The translations under genes were made by a program, and so were the position numbers. DNA of 47,863 nucleotides, taken from contig QHUB01000043.1 of the NCBI GenBank assembly GCA_003221035.1, positions 1-47,863 on the forward strand, written 5' to 3'. This document shows, one piece after another, positions 1,083-7,982 of the stretch. Positions within the stretch are counted from its first letter, which is position 1. The number at the start of each line of letters is the position of its first letter. This stretch comes from Gemmatimonadota bacterium. Lineage in GTDB: Bacteria > Gemmatimonadota > Gemmatimonadetes > Gemmatimonadales > GWC2-71-9. The notes below the pieces were generated by a model. The model was not told the DNA's origin, made no database searches, and was given only the letters and a program-made list of their open reading frames with translations.

Positions 1083-1474
1083 GAGCGCGACCCATGCGAC
1101 CGGTGAATAGGTGGTAGAGCGGCTCGGGCGGTATGCAACCTTCACAAAAGGGCCTGGCAATCCCGCCGGAGCATGGGACCGAAGGTAGGCACCCGTCGAA
1201 CCGTCGGGCAAGGGCGTAGGGCTTCCCTTGCGAGCCTCGCGACCTGACTTCACTATATGGAGGGACGTTCGCCCAAGCCGTTGGGTGTCCCACTCGATTT
1301 CCCAAGCCCAGGAGGCGGCATGGATCAGATTTCCGTTCGCTGCGTTCTCCATTGTCAGCGCAACATCATCATTCCGGGTCGATGTAGTCGCTAGCGGCGG
1401 AGCCGTTCCGTCGCCCCGGCGTCGAACCGGCCGCGACTGTTCTTCTTCAACTCAACAGCGTGAGGATATCGACT
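1083..1474. other. 392-bp divergent intergenic region upstream of susC
   Basis: Non-coding gap between the dsbA-like gene (minus) and susC (plus). It holds a 7-bp stem hairpin (GCAAGGG 1208-1214 / CCCTTGC 1225-1231), a TATAGT box on the minus strand at 1252-1257 and a TATATG box on the plus strand at 1254-1259, neither with a good -35 partner, and a short open frame with an AGGAGG (see 1320-1394). The susC ribosome site GAGG lies at 1462-1465. I could not recognise a riboswitch or tRNA. A structured leader for susC is possible. Confidence 0.5.
1320..1394 (+). CDS. Possible 24-aa leader peptide upstream of susC
   Basis: ATG at 1320 is preceded by AGGAGG at 1310-1315 (4-nt spacing, short but close to consensus) and runs 24 codons to TAG at 1392-1394. 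The predicted product begins MDQISVRCVLHCQ and contains three cysteines. It lies 80 bp before the susC start. I know no such family; it may be a chance frame or a leader that couples translation to susC expression. Confidence 0.25.
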   Translation: MDQISVRCVLHCQRNIIIPGRCSR

Positions 1475-4400
1475 ATGCGACTGACTAGTGGTCGAGCCAG
1501 CCTGACTGCCGGGCTTGCCGCGGCTCTGCTCTTCGGAGGAGGAGCCGCCGCTACGCGACTGGCCGCGCAGCAAGCGCAACAGCAAGGCGGAATCAACGGG
1601 ACGGTCACCGACCGTGTGAGCGGCGCACCGCTCGCGTCGGTACGCGTGAGCGTGCTGAATACCAATCGTTCCGCGTTTACCAACCAACAAGGGAAGTTCT
1701 TTCTTCAAGGCCTGCCGGTTGGAACCTATCAACTGCAGGCCTCGCTGATCGGCTACGGGGCCGCGACCGGTAGCGCCGCGGTAACGACGGGGCAGAATGC
1801 AACGGTCGATTTTGGGCTCAAGGCCGCGGCTGTCTCGCTCGACGTCGTCACCGTCGTGACGCCTGCGGGTGAGCAGCGGGCGCGCGAGGCCGGCACTGCC
1901 ACGAGCAACATCGACATGCCGACGATCACCCAGAACCAGACCGTGACGACGTTCGCCGACGCAATGTCCGGCCGCGACGCCGGCGTGCAGGTGCTGCAGT
2001 CGGGCGGCACGGTTGGAACGGGCACCCGCATCCGCATCCGCGGTCAGACCAGCTTGTCGTTGTCCAACGAGCCTGTGTACTACGTGGACGGCGTGCGTGT
2101 CGAGTCTGGCGACAACTCGCTCTCCATTGGAACGGGCGGCCAGGCGCCGTCGCGCATCAACGACATCAATCCTGAAGACATTGCCAACGTCGAGGTTGTG
2201 AAAGGCCCCGCCGCTTCGACGCTGTATGGCACGCAGGCCGCGAACGGCGTCATCCGCATCACGACCAAGCACGGCGTCGCAGGACCGGCTCGCTGGCGCG
2301 TGTACGCGGAAGGCGGCGTGTTGAACGACAAGAATCAGTACCCGACCAACTTCATGAGCTGGGGTCACCGCGGTGCGACGACGGGCATCCAGTGCCGGCT
2401 GCTGTCATCGGTGGCGACGACGAATCCCTGCGTGATCGACAGCATGACGTCCTACAACGTGCTGATGGATCCGAAGCAGACGCCGATCGGCACGGGCTAT
2501 CGCGGTCAGCTGGGCTTGCAGGTGCAGGGCGGCACCGATCAAGTGCAGTACTATCTGTCGGGCGATTACTCGGATGACCTGGGCATTTATCGCCTGTCGG
2601 ACGTCGAATATCAGCGCCTGACGACGACCTTCGCGGGTTCGCCGCCGCCCTACGAGGTGTACCGGCCCAACGAACAGAAGCAGACCAGCCTGCGCTCCAA
2701 CATTCACATTCTGCCGATGCCGCAGCTCGACATCACGGGCAACCTCGGTCTCGTGCAGAGCCGCGCGCGGCTGCCGCAGAACGACAACAACGTTACCGGC
2801 TTCTTGCCGAGTGGCCTGTTCGGTCGCGGCCAGGAAGGGTCGCCGAACATCTGGGGATTCTTCCTCCCCGGTGACGTCTTCCAGATCCTCACGCAGCAGG
2901 ACATCAGCCGCGTGACGGGCAGCCTGGCGGGCAACTATCGCCCGACGACGTTCCTCACGGTCCGTGCGAACGTCGGCCTCGACTACACCGGCCGAAACGA
3001 CATTCAATTCCAGGCGCGCGGCGAGGGCCCGAACTTCTCGAACTTCAAACAGGGCCGCCGCAGCGACAACCGCTTCACCATCTTCCACTACACGTCGGAC
3101 CTGAGCGGCACGGCGCAATTCGAGCTGTCGCCCACGGTCAATTCGCGGACGTCGGTGGGGTTACAGTTCCTGAAAGACGACTTCTTCGGCGTCCTGGCGA
3201 ACGGGCAGAACATGCCCCCGGGAGCGCATTCGATCACGAGCGGTGCGATCCGGACCGCCAGTGAGCAAACGACGCTCGCCGTGACCCTCGGCTACTATGC
3301 CGAGGAGCAGATCGGCTGGCGCGACCGCGTCTTCATCACCGGCGGCCTCCGTCACGACCGCAACAGCACCTTCGGCATCAAGACGCGATCGGTGAGCTAT
3401 CCGAAGATTCAGGGATCATGGGTGATTTCGGACGAGGACTTCTATCCCCACAGCATGCCGGTCAGCAATCTGAAGCTCCGGTTCGCCTACGGCGCGTCCG
3501 GGCAGCAGCCGGGCAGCACGGATGCGCTGCTGTTCTATCTCGGCCAGACCGCCACCATCAACGGGAGCGATCAGCCGGGCATCGACCTGTCGGCGTTTGG
3601 CAACCCGAATCTGAAGCCCGAGTGGTCCTCCGAGGTCGAGCTCGGCTTCGACGCCGGGTTGTTCAAGGACGCGGCGCGCTTCGAGCTGACGTATTACAAC
3701 AAGCGCACCAAGGATGCGTTGATCAGTCGCCGGCTGCCGCCGTCGCAGGGCATCAACCAGACGCGGTTCGAGAACATCGGTTCGGTGCAGAACCGCGGCA
3801 TCGAGGCGCTGATCAGCGCGCGGCAGGACATCTCGCCGAAAGTGGGATGGGACGCGACGATCAGCATTGCCCGCAACACGAACAAGCTGCTCAAGCTCGG
3901 GGTCCCGCCGATCGTGAATGGCGAGATTCAGCAGCGCGAGGGCTATCCGTTGTTCGGCTTCTGGGACCGGCCGATCACGGGGTATACCGATGCCAACGGC
4001 AACGGCATCATCGAGGTCAACGAGGTTACGGTCGCGGATAGCGCGCTCTACCTGGGCTCGTCGATTCCGCGCACCATCGTCACCCTGAACGCGGGCTTCA
4101 ACTTCCTGCGAAATCGCCTGCGGCTGTCGGGGCAGTTCGATTATCGTGGCGACTGGAAGGCGTACAACCTGACGGAGCGGTTCCGCTGCGTCGGCGCGGG
4201 GTTCAATTGCGAGGGCGTGAACGACCCCAATGCTCCGTTCGCGGAGCAGGCTCGCTCGGTGGCGGCGGGCAGCAGCGCACTCGGGTTCTCGCAGGCCGGC
4301 TACATCACGGACGGCACGTTCCTGCGGCTGCGCGAGGCCTCGCTGACCTATACCGCGCCGGACAACTGGGCGCGGACGGTTCATGCCCAGTCGATGCAGT

Positions 4401-4552
4401 TCTCCCTGACGGGCCGCAATCTGCTCAAGTGGACCAACTACGACGGGATCGACCCCGAGCTCAACGGCAACGGGCAATCCGACCTGCCGGATGACTTCCT
4501 CACCGCGCCTCCGATCCGCACGATGGCCGTGCGCGTATCGTTGGGCTTTTAG
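1475..4552 (+). CDS. SusC/RagA-family TonB-dependent outer-membrane receptor
   Basis: About 1025 aa. A signal peptide (MRLTSGRASLTAGLAAALLF, cleavage near AAQ) is followed by a carboxypeptidase-regulatory-like domain (about 38-118), a TonB plug (about 125-240, with YYVDGVRV and VEVVKGPAASTLYGTQAANG) and a long beta-barrel ending in VRVSLGF with terminal phenylalanine. With its SusD partner it should import an oligomer (peptide or glycan; substrate unknown). The frame is open back to GTG 1460, but ATG 1475 has GAGG nine bases upstream and begins the signal peptide, so I prefer it. The segment TDANGNGIIEVNE near residue 845 resembles an EF-hand-type calcium loop. susD follows with 9 bp between them. 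Confidence 0.93.
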   Translation: MRLTSGRASLTAGLAAALLFGGGAAATRLAAQQAQQQGGINGTVTDRVSGAPLASVRVSVLNTNRSAFTNQQGKFFLQGLPVGTYQLQASLIGYGAATGSAAVTTGQNATVDFGLKAAAVSLDVVTVVTPAGEQRAREAGTATSNIDMPTITQNQTVTTFADAMSGRDAGVQVLQSGGTVGTGTRIRIRGQTSLSLSNEPVYYVDGVRVESGDNSLSIGTGGQAPSRINDINPEDIANVEVVKGPAASTLYGTQAANGVIRITTKHGVAGPARWRVYAEGGVLNDKNQYPTNFMSWGHRGATTGIQCRLLSSVATTNPCVIDSMTSYNVLMDPKQTPIGTGYRGQLGLQVQGGTDQVQYYLSGDYSDDLGIYRLSDVEYQRLTTTFAGSPPPYEVYRPNEQKQTSLRSNIHILPMPQLDITGNLGLVQSRARLPQNDNNVTGFLPSGLFGRGQEGSPNIWGFFLPGDVFQILTQQDISRVTGSLAGNYRPTTFLTVRANVGLDYTGRNDIQFQARGEGPNFSNFKQGRRSDNRFTIFHYTSDLSGTAQFELSPTVNSRTSVGLQFLKDDFFGVLANGQNMPPGAHSITSGAIRTASEQTTLAVTLGYYAEEQIGWRDRVFITGGLRHDRNSTFGIKTRSVSYPKIQGSWVISDEDFYPHSMPVSNLKLRFAYGASGQQPGSTDALLFYLGQTATINGSDQPGIDLSAFGNPNLKPEWSSEVELGFDAGLFKDAARFELTYYNKRTKDALISRRLPPSQGINQTRFENIGSVQNRGIEALISARQDISPKVGWDATISIARNTNKLLKLGVPPIVNGEIQQREGYPLFGFWDRPITGYTDANGNGIIEVNEVTVADSALYLGSSIPRTIVTLNAGFNFLRNRLRLSGQFDYRGDWKAYNLTERFRCVGAGFNCEGVNDPNAPFAEQARSVAAGSSALGFSQAGYITDGTFLRLREASLTYTAPDNWARTVHAQSMQFSLTGRNLLKWTNYDGIDPELNGNGQSDLPDDFLTAPPIRTMAVRVSLGF

Positions 4553-4561
4553 GAGGCGACC

Positions 4562-5893
4562 ATGAGATACCACACTCGTTTCGGCCTCGTGCTCGCCGCG
4601 CTCGCCGTGTCGGCCTGCTCAGGCCTCCTGGACGTGAAGGATCCGGACATCATCAATCCCGGGGATATCCAAAACGCAGACGGTGCCATCGCGGCTTACA
4701 ATGGCGGCATCGGCGACTTCGCGTTCGCCAATGACGGTGACAACGGCGGCACGGAGGGGCAAATCCTCGTGTCCGGCGTGATGTCAGATGAGTACATCGA
4801 CGTGGAGACGTTCCCGACGCGGATTGAATACGATTCGCGCGCCATCAACGAGCGGAACGGCACGTTGACAAACGTCTTCTTCAACCTGGCCAAGGCACGG
4901 GTCGCGGTGGAGGGCGCCGCAACGGCGCTCGAGACCTACGTGCCGACGGACACGGCGCGCATCGGCGAAATGCTGGCGCTCGCCGGCTACACGTACGTGT
5001 ATTTCGCCGAGAACTACTGCTCGGGGGTTCCGTTCAGTGAGCGGTTGGACAACGGCGATATCCAGTACGGGAGCCCGCTGACCACGGCACAAATCCTGGA
5101 CCTCGCCGTGGCGCGGTTCGACTCGGCGCTGGGATATACGCAAACGGCGTCGGTCGTCCGTCTGGCCAGCGTTGGGAAGGGCCGCGCGCTGCTCGACAAA
5201 GGCGACTTTGTGGGTGCCAATGCCGCCGTCGCCGCGGTCACGCCGGGGCAATACCAGACGACGCATTCGCTGTCGAGCGGCCGTCAACAAAACGGCGTAT
5301 TCGTCTTCAACAATCCCAGCGGTGCCCGGGGCGGCACGGCGCGCTTCGGCGTGTCCAATTCGGAGGGCACCAACGGCCTCGACTTCCGGACGGCGGCCGA
5401 CCTGCGGGTCCCGACGCAGCAGATGGGACTCGGCTTCGACAATGCATCGCCGCTGTGGGTGTTCCTGAGATATGCGGATCGCACGAGTCCGGTCACCGTG
5501 GCCGGCTACGTCGAAGCCCGCCTGATTCGGGCCGAGGCGGCATTGCACTCGGCGCCCGGGACCAGGGCCGTGACCGATACGTTGAACGCGCTTCGCGCGG
5601 ACGCCGCGAATAACGGCGGCTTTACGCTTACAGCGCTGGCCGATCCCGCTACCGACAGCGCGCGCACGGTCCTCTTGTTCCGTGAGCGCGCGTTCTGGAT
5701 GTTTGGGCAAGGCCACCGGCTCGGCGATCTCCGGCGGTTGGCACGCGCCCCGTACAACTTCCCGGTCAACAGCATTTATCCGGTCGGGACGTATCCCAAA
5801 GGTACGGTATACGGAAACAACACCGAGTTGCCGGTGCCGTTCGACGAGCGTAACAACCCGAACTTCACGGGGTGCAACTACAACGTCCCGTAA
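4562..5893 (+). CDS. SusD/RagB-family outer-membrane lipoprotein
   Basis: 443 aa. A lipoprotein signal peptide with lipobox VSAC (Cys 20) is followed by the start typical of the family (SGLLDVKDPDIINPGD). The body has helical TPR-like segments (LAGYTYVYFAENYCSGVPFSE; a RERAFWMFGQGHRLGDLRRL block near the C-terminus) as in SusD-like substrate-binding lids. It would sit on the cell surface over the SusC barrel. The ribosome site AGGAGG at 4551-4556 overlaps the susC stop codon, so the pair is translated together. The gene is somewhat shorter than typical Bacteroidetes SusD (around 500 aa), as is usual for distant members. Transcription probably ends at the palindrome beginning at 6003. Confidence 0.92.
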   Translation: MRYHTRFGLVLAALAVSACSGLLDVKDPDIINPGDIQNADGAIAAYNGGIGDFAFANDGDNGGTEGQILVSGVMSDEYIDVETFPTRIEYDSRAINERNGTLTNVFFNLAKARVAVEGAATALETYVPTDTARIGEMLALAGYTYVYFAENYCSGVPFSERLDNGDIQYGSPLTTAQILDLAVARFDSALGYTQTASVVRLASVGKGRALLDKGDFVGANAAVAAVTPGQYQTTHSLSSGRQQNGVFVFNNPSGARGGTARFGVSNSEGTNGLDFRTAADLRVPTQQMGLGFDNASPLWVFLRYADRTSPVTVAGYVEARLIRAEAALHSAPGTRAVTDTLNALRADAANNGGFTLTALADPATDSARTVLLFRERAFWMFGQGHRLGDLRRLARAPYNFPVNSIYPVGTYPKGTVYGNNTELPVPFDERNNPNFTGCNYNVP

Positions 5894-5895
5894 CG

Positions 5896-6007
5896 GGTGT
5901 AGCGTTGTACACGGTGTAGCGTTGTACACAGGGGTAGGGGTGCAGCGTGGTGTACACAGGAGTAGGGGTGCAGCGTGCAGAAAAGAGGGGTGCAGCGTGT
6001 AGAAAAG
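5896..6007 (+). repeat. Degenerate direct-repeat tract after susD
   Basis: Two perfect tandem copies of a 17-bp unit (GGTGTAGCGTTGTACAC) at 5896-5912 and 5913-5929 are followed by related 28-, 28- and 22-bp units at 5930-5957, 5958-5985 and 5986-6007. These share the core AGGGGTGCAGCGTG and end in either TGTACAC or AGAAAAG. The units grade into the palindrome at 6003-6042. Confidence 0.85.
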
Positions 6008-6094
6008 AGTAGGGGCGCAGCATGCTGCGCCCCTACTCTTTTTAGATGCTGCGCCCCTACTCTTTTTAGATCCTGCGCCCCGACGTCTTTTCTA
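5958..6094. repeat. Long imperfect inverted repeat with about 65-70-bp arms
   Basis: The left arm (about 5958-6022) carries the unit (G)GGGTGCAGCGTG.AGAAAAGAG. The right arm (6023-6094) carries perfect 24-bp tandem copies of ATGCTGCGCCCCTACTCTTT... at 6022-6045 and 6046-6069 and a diverged third copy to about 6094. The arms are reverse complements of each other with mismatches, so the transcript can fold into one long hairpin or several alternative ones. Confidence 0.8.
6003..6042. terminator. 40-bp perfect palindrome, probable bidirectional terminator
   Basis: Perfect inverted repeat centred on GCATGC (centre 6022/6023): each base i pairs with 6045-i from 6003 to 6042. The G+C-rich stem (AGTAGGGGCGCAGC) is flanked by an A-run on the left and CTCTTTTT on the right, so it can act as an intrinsic terminator for both susD (plus) and the convergent lipoprotein gene (minus). 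The same core occurs at 11393-11412 and 34557-34580. Confidence 0.75.
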
Positions 6095-6111
6095 GAACCC
6101 TTAATCCAGCG

Positions 6112-6552
6112 TCAGCTCCCCGCCCCCTTGGTGGTAATGCGGATCACGCCCTTGGTGGCGCCCGTGCCGTAGTACGTCGTCGCGTCGATGCCGGTCAGCA
6201 CCTCGATCTGCTCGATGTCTGCGGCCGGCATGACCACCAGCGACGCGTAGTCGTTCAGCTCGACGCCATCCATGATGATCATCGGCTGATCGTGCAGCAT
6301 GACACTGGAGCGGCCGCGATGCTCGACGCGTCCGGCGCTGCCGTTGTTACCGTCCTTGAACTCGAAGAAGGGGACTGTCCGCTGCAGCGCTTCCCACGCG
6401 GTGCGAGCACCGGTTTTCTCGATCGCGTCGGCATTGATGATGCGGCGGCCGTCCCCTGGATGCACCGACGAATCCGAGGGGCGATGGGGACGGTGGCAGG
6501 CGGACGACAACAGCAGCGTGGCGACGGCTGACACTCGAACCAGACGGGACAT
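6112..6552 (-). CDS. Lipoprotein consisting of a lone TonB-receptor plug-like domain
   Basis: 146 aa. MSRLVRVSAVATLLLSSAC is a lipoprotein signal peptide. The remainder aligns by eye with the plug of SusC-type receptors: IINADAIEKTGARTAWEALQ, then VELNDYASLVVMPAADIEQI, VLTGIDATTYYGT and GVIRITTKG. Compare ANVEVVKGPAASTLYGT and GVIRITTK in the SusC at 1475. No beta-barrel follows; the protein stops after the plug. The start ATG 6552 has GAGG upstream; the longer frame to 6708 adds an Arg-rich stretch with no signal. It is convergent with susD and lies downstream of the cupredoxin gene. A function as a surface or periplasmic partner of TonB receptors is inference. Confidence 0.7.
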   Translation of the reverse strand: MSRLVRVSAVATLLLSSACHRPHRPSDSSVHPGDGRRIINADAIEKTGARTAWEALQRTVPFFEFKDGNNGSAGRVEHRGRSSVMLHDQPMIIMDGVELNDYASLVVMPAADIEQIEVLTGIDATTYYGTGATKGVIRITTKGAGS

Positions 6553-6605: not shown

Positions 6606-6992
6606 TCAAGGAGGCGGCGGGTCGACGACCACGGTGCCGATCATGCCGCTGTGGATCGAGCAGTGGTAGGGAAAGGTGCCGACGCTGTCGAATCGGATCT
6701 CGTACCATGCCGCGGGTGTCAGGCTGCCGCTCCCAAAGAGTCCGCTGTCGGACACCACGGTGTGAATCACCGCGCCCTCATTGGTCCAGCGCACCGGCAG
6801 GTGGAAGCCGACGTGAATGGTGTCCGGCGTGAAAAAGCTGTCCCGTGCCGCGACGAAGACGGTGCCCGGCCGGATGCCGAACACGGGGTCCGGTTTGCAT
6901 GTGACCAGCGCGGCGCAGAGTCCCAGGACCACGACCACGCAAAAGGACGACAACCAGCGTCGGGTCGTCGTCCGGTTCACGGCATGCCTCAT
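6606..6992 (-). CDS. Cupredoxin (plastocyanin-like) lipoprotein
   Basis: 128 aa. The N-terminal hydrophobic segment ends in a lipobox (LVTC, Cys 32). A single blue-copper fold follows, with ligands that can be read directly: His in GAVIHTVVSD, then Cys-His-Met in YHCSIHSGM near the C-terminus, and the closing strand GTVVV. This is the type-1 copper arrangement H...C-x2-H-x2-M. It probably serves as a membrane-anchored electron carrier in the periplasm. It lies 7 bp after the M23 peptidase gene on the same strand, so co-transcription is likely. Its terminal Pro-rich tail (DPPPP) is short. Confidence 0.85.
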   Translation of the reverse strand: MRHAVNRTTTRRWLSSFCVVVVLGLCAALVTCKPDPVFGIRPGTVFVAARDSFFTPDTIHVGFHLPVRWTNEGAVIHTVVSDSGLFGSGSLTPAAWYEIRFDSVGTFPYHCSIHSGMIGTVVVDPPPP

Positions 6993-6999
6993 GCTGCAA

Positions 7000-7941
7000 T
7001 CAATCCACGATCGCGTCCGGCAGCACGTACTTCATCGGGTCAACCGGCCGGCCATTCACCCACACCTCGTAATGCAGATGCGGTCCCGTGGATAGACCCG
7101 TCGACCCGACTTTCGCGACCGGCTGGCCGCGCTTCACGCGCTGGCCGCGTACGACGAGAATCTTGGAGCAGTGCGCGTAGCGCGTCACGAGCCCGTAGCC
7201 ATGATCGATCGTCAGCATGTTGCCGTAGCCTTCGACCCACGCGACGTTCGTGATGACGCCGGCGGCCGGCGCGTCGATCTCCATGCCCATCGGCGCGGAG
7301 ACGTCAATGCCTTCGTGCGGACGCGCGAGGTGGAGAATCGGATGGACGCGCTCGCGCGCGAACGCGCTGGTGAGCCAGCCCTTGGTCGGCATGATCGACG
7401 GCATCGCGGCATAGCGCGAGCGCTGGCTCGACGCCGAGTCGTAAGCTTCGTTGAGCGAGCGGACGAGAATGTTGGCACGGCGGGTCAGTTGATCCATGTC
7501 GATGCGCGCGGCGAGCGCGAGCTTTCCGTTCGCGCCGGCCGCGGACAGACTGTCACGCTCGACCCATTGGCCGGTCGGTCCGCCGATACCCGCCTGCTGC
7601 ACATCTTTGTCGATCGGCGTCAAGCCCGCGAGCAGTCGCAGCGCCTGCTCGCGCTCGCCGAACACATTCAACGTGTCGCGCAGCCCCTCGATGCGCTCGC
7701 GCAGTCGCTGGATCTCACCCGCGAGCACGTCATTTTCGCGCTCGAGCGCGCGGCTCTTCGTGACGTTGACGCCGCGCGACAGCGCGGTGCCGCCGAGCAC
7801 GAGCACCAGCAGCGCGAGCACGCTGCCGATTCCGACGAGCGCCTTGACGACCGTCTGCGACACTTCCACGGCACGGGATGAACCCGAGCCGTGCGGGACC
7901 AGCATGACGGTCCAGCGGCGCTCCGCCTGTTTCTTCTTCAT
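7000..7941 (-). CDS. M23-family (LytM) cell-wall metallopeptidase, membrane-anchored
   Basis: 313 aa. A basic N-terminus (MKKKQAERRWTVMLVPHGSG) leads to one membrane segment (VVKALVGIGSVLALLVLVLG), then a coiled-coil stretch (ENDVLAGEIQRLRERIEGL), a linker, and a C-terminal peptidase_M23 domain. Zinc/catalytic motifs are HEGIDVS, the YGLVTRYAHCSK strand and TGPHLHYEVWVNG. It should cleave peptidoglycan cross-links or activate an amidase in the periplasm. ATG 7941 is chosen over TTG 7953 because a promoter-like pair, TTGACG-18-TATGTT, ends just upstream and would place transcription start next to this ATG. Cupredoxin and plug lipoprotein genes follow. Confidence 0.9.
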   Translation of the reverse strand: MKKKQAERRWTVMLVPHGSGSSRAVEVSQTVVKALVGIGSVLALLVLVLGGTALSRGVNVTKSRALERENDVLAGEIQRLRERIEGLRDTLNVFGEREQALRLLAGLTPIDKDVQQAGIGGPTGQWVERDSLSAAGANGKLALAARIDMDQLTRRANILVRSLNEAYDSASSQRSRYAAMPSIMPTKGWLTSAFARERVHPILHLARPHEGIDVSAPMGMEIDAPAAGVITNVAWVEGYGNMLTIDHGYGLVTRYAHCSKILVVRGQRVKRGQPVAKVGSTGLSTGPHLHYEVWVNGRPVDPMKYVLPDAIVD

Positions 7942-7952
7942 ATCGGGATGCA

Positions 7953-7982
7953 AACATACGCCCCGAAGCGCGACGGCGTCAA
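7953..7982 (-). promoter_or_regulatory. Promoter for the M23 peptidase gene (TTGACG-18-TATGTT)
   Basis: On the minus strand TTGACG (7982-7977) and TATGTT (7958-7953) are separated by 18 bp. The -10 box ends 11 nt before ATG 7941 and no Shine-Dalgarno is visible, so the transcript would have an almost absent 5' leader. Confidence 0.5.

Follow-up and report, generated by a model that had tools for sequence, protein, structure and literature searches.

A barrel-less plug lipoprotein family as a probable, genetically linked accessory of a SusC-SusD lineage in Gemmatimonadota

We found that a 47,863-nucleotide stretch of Gemmatimonadota DNA (hereafter the window, from a genome whose completeness is given as 98.67%) encodes a small lipoprotein consisting of a TonB-receptor plug domain without a barrel. 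Computation identifies a plug fold, a lipoprotein signal, a family of barrel-less relatives, convergent linkage to susC and susD, co-inheritance with these genes, and a plug that has lost its TonB box and one lock residue. We give somewhat better than even odds to the idea that this neofunctionalised plug is a cognate accessory outer-membrane lipoprotein of SusCD which docks on the transporter from the periplasmic side. The features of the locus are collected in Table 1.

Table 1. Coordinates and annotation of the window features and of one further barrel-less plug type.
Feature	Position	Strand	Basis or remark
susC, SusC/RagA-type TonB-dependent receptor with its own CTD, plug (residues 142-264) and barrel	1460..4552	+	TIGR04056, 423.8 bits against a cut-off of 368.25
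susD-like lipoprotein, cognate	4562..5893	+	SusD_RagB, 18.0 bits, under the cut-off of 23.1
Intergenic terminator candidate, bidirectional, separating susD from the plug gene	6003..6042	.	perfect inverted repeat of 20 nt, ends formed by an A-run and a T-run, amid short tandem repeats
Lone plug lipoprotein, 146 aa	6112..6552	-	ORF call, Pfam, structure model, family alignments
Plug domain of the lone plug lipoprotein	6145-6441	-	residues 38-136, PF07715
Lipidation Cys19 of the lone plug lipoprotein	6496-6498	-	SSAC lipobox, lipidation predicted
Signal peptide of the lone plug lipoprotein	6499-6552	-	sequence MSRLVRVSAVATLLLSSA
Cupredoxin-like lipoprotein, upstream of the plug gene	6606..6992	-	Pfam and NCBIfam scores under curated cut-offs
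M23 peptidase, upstream of the plug gene on the same strand	7000..7953	-	neighbour in 8 of 79 loci
CarboxypepD_reg + Plug proteins	L047:554-1438, L050:1886-2743, L102:1144-1986, L046:11894-12664		

A family of plug-only lipoproteins

The first-pass annotation had described a plug-only lipoprotein of 146 aa, and the open reading frame, the lipobox, the single Plug domain and the quoted motifs are all present. A linker of about 18 residues separates Cys19 from the Plug domain, which matches PF07715 over profile positions 11-107 of 107 (59.2 bits, with the cut-off at 23.9; E 6.6e-16). The stop codon lies 10 residues past this domain, and the same chain holds no barrel. TIGR04056 (SusC/RagA) reaches 54.2 bits on the protein and stays below its curated cut-off of 368.25. 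Cys19 is invariant in both alignments of the window protein and its relatives (A1 and A3, see below). Among 78 lone plugs, 75 pass an automatic lipobox test and the remaining three also have a cysteine, and none of the 75 carries an Asp at the +2 position. In E. coli, lipoproteins without an Asp after the lipobox cysteine are sorted to the outer membrane. Under this rule, which stems from another phylum, the lone plugs would be anchored in the outer membrane.

Structure prediction, proposed as a check in the first-pass annotation, gave a confident plug fold. AlphaFold2, supplied with the 28 A3 sequences, returned a model with a mean pLDDT of 82.2 and a pTM of 0.70, in which the blocks 41-60 and 91-120 reach pLDDT 95-96. 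The nearest structures are plugs of SusC and other receptors: these were the top Foldseek matches (probability 1.00, best E 6.8e-6), and a second structural comparison listed FyuA with a Z of 10.5 and the SusC BT1763 with a Z of 10.2 over 108 residues at 3.4 Å. When the sequence profile was compared with solved structures, SusC homologues ranked first (E about 1e-11). Judging by the model, we are confident that the window protein folds as a TonB-receptor plug.

A search with the window protein alone in 61 related genomes detected short frames of some 140-180 aa, in addition to the receptors of some 1000 aa that were to be expected. The profile A1, made of 19 members from this search, was run over 395 Gemmatimonadota genomes and recovered at least 77 homologues at 91-202 bits in at least 69 genomes, a lower bound given that nine candidates were scored per genome. 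All 77 frames measure 660 aa or less, and none is barrel-sized. They stand apart from the receptor plugs, of which the best among the matches listed, in a 1031-aa frame of genome G350, scored 70.8 bits; a few short-frame plugs lie near the border at 70-78 bits. Represented among the 77 are three families of the same order (f1, f2 and f3) and four others of the class (f4, f5, f6 and f9). In the 78 copies retrieved, a median of 2 and a maximum of 56 residues follow the aligned domain, and dN/dS was 0.11-0.18 in seven of seven related pairs examined, which indicates purifying selection.

The alignment A3 combines the window protein with 27 members from a pattern scan of genome contigs, and omits two of the 28 scan loci, L168 (cut by a contig end) and L176 (below 85 bits). 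All 28 A3 members match Pfam Plug and no other Pfam family at E up to 0.01. The 28 scan loci are titled Gemmatimonadetes, Gemmatimonadales, Gemmatimonadota or Longimicrobiaceae with one exception, L158, in a scan that relies on short peptide patterns which distant relatives outside Gemmatimonadota could escape. L158 (VBIW01000101.1), titled Chloroflexi bacterium CF_140, shares 78% identity over 4.2 kb with a Gemmatimonadetes MAG, and by this resemblance its title is probably a wrong taxon label.

These data bear on the idea that the window protein is a decaying fragment of a truncated receptor. Its sequence is plainly plug-derived and shares 36% identity over 88 residues with the plug of the adjacent SusC, but it has a signal peptide of its own. 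According to the first-pass annotation, orthologues with a full barrel would mark the window copy as a truncation; across the 395 genomes, the 77 homologues listed at 91 bits or more, from 69 of them, include no frame large enough for a barrel. The barrel-less family, the short tails behind the domain and purifying selection at dN/dS 0.11-0.18 thus rule out a truncated receptor, and we assign this reading a negligible chance. A recent duplication of the plug of the adjacent SusC is unsupported at this 36% identity. On an 88-row plug tree of few columns, monophyly of the lone plugs was neither supported nor rejected (4 changes, p-AU 0.134).

Further barrel-less plugs were noticed as well. The window's own genome carries a second, more degenerate plug lipoprotein of 158 aa (L181:5156-5632(-), G000:C34; Plug 26.0 bits). 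It converges with the gene that follows another SusC, and plug lipoproteins in a convergent position may be more widespread. Another plug-only lipoprotein type (L058:3002-3442(-), G000:C88, and L057:2503-2955(+); Plug 61.8 and 63.7 bits) is closer to canonical receptor plugs, and no SusCD of the window's lineage was found alongside. A third barrel-less type combines CarboxypepD_reg and Plug in proteins of 256-294 aa (Table 1).

Linkage and co-inheritance with SusCD

We examined the surroundings of 82 plugs, namely 76 of the 77 profile hits scoring 91 bits or more, the plugs of G001 and G009 from the single-protein search and four borderline plugs of 75-77 bits; a partial hit (G380:C17) was left out. 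Three of the 82, whose contigs end within 300 nt before any susD appears, were excluded, and 79 were counted. The convergent orientation of the plug gene and a susCD pair, already noted in the first-pass annotation, is true of the window and recurs among the homologues. A convergent susD lies within 3 kb of 66 of the 79 plugs and is backed by a susC in 61 of these 66; for 63 of the 66 the distance is 250 nt or less (median gap 78, range 3-239). The proposed search for other barrel-less plug lipoproteins and their neighbours yielded at least 77, and most plugs examined face susD and susC. The susC-susD unit with its facing plug persists while the surrounding genes vary: susD recurs in 68 and susC in 65 of the 79 loci, and the next families in at most 10. 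Among the other families recurring in at least four loci, seven were checked in Pfam (MetG-like, beta-propeller, LemA, TPM, S15 peptidase, PSP1 and esterase), and no common substrate emerges from these seven.

Some loci depart from the close convergent arrangement. No SusCD was recognised in the fetched DNA around four plugs of family f3 (L116, L117, L120 and L123), and the frames checked near them are other enzymes or match no family. Instead of susD, a second lone plug of greater divergence is opposite the plugs of L119 and L124, and susC is encoded on the plug's own strand in L119, L122 and L124. The genes intervening at L049 include a second SusCD, the gap between plug and susD at L098 is 2.7 kb, and at L142/L169 plug and SusCD are divergently oriented, this SusCD being of another lineage. 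The plugs of L052 and L099 are paired with SusDs of a different branch. The lone plug lipoproteins of L119 (6501-6893(+)) and L124 (6376-6828(+)) stand tail-to-tail with this second plug, which is too diverged for Pfam Plug, beside susC. One further oddity was seen: at L108:7396-12027(-), a 1543-aa frame matches a sodium:solute symporter followed by the plug and barrel of a TonB receptor, either as a fusion or as a frame artefact, and ends face to face with a lone plug.

In the window, the SusD-like protein scores 491 bits on a profile built from the SusDs of seven relatives. The intergenic gap (5894-6111) has a folding energy far below that of shuffled sequences (z -8.2), and 45 of 56 homologous stop-to-stop gaps between susD and plug also fold better than shuffles with z < -2, as expected of a shared two-way terminator. 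A consensus terminator scan did not list the palindrome that we mark as a candidate in Table 1. The segment 5896-6093 is densely filled with short tandem repeats (units of 17, 22, 24 and 28 nt) and nested inverted repeats. As the plug gene is transcribed toward susD from the opposite side, the dose of the plug can differ from that of SusCD.

On the other side of the plug gene, a neighbouring cupredoxin lipoprotein had been pointed out. The adjacency is real, but the scores for a cupredoxin identity fall below the cut-offs. Relatives found by blastp occur in 2 of the first 20 fetched loci, where they are convergent with another SusCD. With these two loci and the window, a functional tie between plug and cupredoxin is unsupported, and the neighbour is probably incidental as far as gene order tells. 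A tie to the M23 peptidase was rejected, its gene being present in just 8 of the 79 loci.

We analyzed whether plugs and transporters have been inherited together. A SusC tree of 63 rows comprised 28 of the 54 full-length partner SusCs (L052 and L099 not among them) and 35 others. All 28 partners fall into one clade of 35 rows with an SH support of 100, which also contains three rearranged plug loci, two loci cut by contig ends, L193, where the plug is absent, and L108 on a long branch. The distance matrices of lone plugs and SusDs correlate over 62 pairs with a Mantel r of 0.68, as compared to a maximum of 0.14 in 999 permutations, and in 42 of the 62 the nearest neighbour is identical for plug and SusD. 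Six genomes, G034, G142, G179, G232 and G304 among them, carry two units each; here 10 of 12 plugs match the nearest neighbour of their SusD, the exceptions being both plugs of G028. Physical linkage alone would render the trees congruent in part, and it is therefore the lasting linkage that needs explaining. On this genomic evidence the lone plug is probably a genetically linked accessory lipoprotein of SusCD, which would form a physical complex with the transporter.

The SusC subfamily is wider than the plug, with a member at E 1e-230 or better in 237 of the 395 genomes. We hand-picked 20 subfamily SusC loci among rows without a strong plug alongside; 15 have no plug, one has a diverged convergent plug and four (L203-L206) end too early, so that 15 of 16 judgeable loci are plug-less, in genomes some of which (e.g. 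G029, G044 and G372) carry a strong plug elsewhere. The two contigs of G372 are possibly one broken locus. On an 86-row SusD tree, plug presence and absence require at least 16 changes against a mean of 18.2 for shuffled labels, with 48 of 500 shuffles as low and with L203 and L205 scored as plug-less even though their contigs end early. Taken from these distributions, the plug is a facultative accessory that was gained or lost several times. As some lineages are without the plug, the transporter can do without it.

An assembly or quality-control factor that holds the barrel or the plug of the cognate SusC during insertion would fit a predicted lipoprotein with a plug fold that is cognate to one receptor lineage. 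However, many SusCs of the subfamily lack a lone plug and nothing specific points to such a function, which we consider very unlikely.

Residue changes and possible roles of the lone plug

We compared 78 lone plugs with the plugs of 54 partner SusCs and of 35 other SusCs, some of which (e.g. L193) belong to the same subfamily, counting rows with a letter at the respective position. Position 120 is K/R in 50 of 53 partner and 34 of 35 other SusCs but in only 1 of 78 lone plugs, the window protein having a Thr. R77 is found in 48/48 partner and 18/26 other SusCs versus 7/78 lone plugs, D107 in 52/53 and 30/34 versus 12/78, and N109 and P110 are each absent from all 78 lone plugs. Conversely, D/E at position 88 is present in 71 of 78 lone plugs and in none of 48 partner or 26 other SusCs. 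W53 occurs in 76 of 78 lone plugs, in none of the 54 partner rows and in none of the 32 rows inspected of the 35 others, a comparison checked with a second alignment given that just part of the SusC rows is aligned before about position 70. R79 is kept in 72 of 78 lone plugs, and G129 and G135 are kept in all 77 that are aligned there.

In an alignment with FhuA, R79 presumably corresponds to R93 and position 120 to R133. The available part of PMC11658791 describes FhuA R93 and R133 as basic residues that lock the plug to the barrel. By this pair of lock residues of TonB receptors, the lone plugs have kept one, the R93 equivalent, and lost the other. The suggestion in the first-pass annotation that the protein occupies a receptor is weakened for a normal plug by the loss of the R133-type lock, retained in 1 of 78, although the R93 equivalent is there. 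Its suggestions of a regulator of SusC or a detached binding domain are conceivable. Its suggestion that the protein binds TonB found no support, as a simple pattern detected a TonB-box-like motif in none of 75 lone-plug linkers, and a slightly stricter form of this crude pattern detects it in 37 of 54 partner SusCs.

Could the lone plug nevertheless enter the cognate SusC barrel once the resident plug has been pulled, and keep the pore closed as a second gate? It has a full plug fold, one of two locks and a cognate pairing with SusD, and the available part of PMC7618045 implies that plug density is missing in some detergent-solubilised SusC barrels. Against this stand the loss of the R133 equivalent, the extensive or complete loss of R77, D107, N109 and P110, and the missing TonB box, by which the protein could be removed from the barrel again. 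Moreover, the window's SusC and 15 aligned partner SusCs retain their own plug motifs. We regard a stand-in of this kind as unlikely. A receptor with two plugs in the wider sense, in which, besides the resident plug pulled by TonB, a lipid-anchored plug matched to each unit dynamically occupies and gates in trans either the cognate SusC barrel or its periplasmic mouth, appears to us rather unlikely.

A further option is a lipoprotein that uses its plug loops to bind a ligand beside SusD without touching SusC. Seven positions (67, 71, 73, 79, 80, 83 and 88) are well conserved among the lone plugs. Also, in a 2001 study by Usher cited in PMC11658791, a FepA plug on its own reportedly binds the siderophore with no barrel present, which would make barrel-free ligand binding possible; that plug was a laboratory construct, however, and not a natural lipoprotein family. 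The neighbouring genes, in turn, hint at no common substrate, with no family besides susC and susD in more than 10 of the 79 loci. We hold such a ligand binder to be distinctly unlikely.

The loss of the TonB handle and of one lock, together with a window SusC that keeps its own plug and barrel, makes docking more plausible than either a second locked plug or a role as adaptor for TonB. We thus prefer an accessory plug that docks on SusCD. Its plug domain would have split long ago from a SusC-type receptor to become an outer-membrane lipoprotein in its own right, matched mainly to a single SusC-SusD lineage of Gemmatimonadota. Anchored by its lipid, the plug would face the periplasm and dock from there on its cognate SusCD, where it might handle the substrate leaving the barrel or steady the mobile SusC plug. 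It would not itself be pulled by TonB. Localisation, orientation, docking and an effect on transport are what we infer for this protein.

Relation to known systems

The lone plug shares the fold and the C-terminal motif of the SusC/RagA plug (PF07715; TIGR04056/TIGR04057). It differs in lacking the barrel, the CTD and a TonB-box-like motif, in having a lipid anchor, in having mostly lost the K/R at position 120, R77 and D107, and in having gained W53. Accessory lipoproteins of SusCD are themselves known. According to the available part of PMC7618045, SusCD utilisomes carry surface glycan-binding proteins (SGBPs) and surface enzymes, and a stable SusCD complex of B. theta holds two lipoproteins of unknown function. 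Like the lone plug, these are lipoproteins genetically tied to a SusCD pair. That part of the source treats them as glycan-binding proteins, enzymes or proteins of unknown function and calls none of them a plug. The lone plug gene is convergent with susCD and does not share an operon with it. Neither a natural barrel-less plug lipoprotein nor a two-plug receptor was among the literature matches listed in open-access full text. Plugs and SusCD accessory lipoproteins are hence known as such, and a natural plug-only lipoprotein partner was not met in this literature.

How the plug moves and how the pore is sealed during transport are still argued for TonB-dependent transporters. Stand-alone plugs that are each matched to a SusCD unit and lack the TonB handle and one lock offer a ready test of the role of a plug outside its own barrel. 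For the Gemmatimonadota, a little-studied phylum, the lone plug is a likely third component of a SusCD system.
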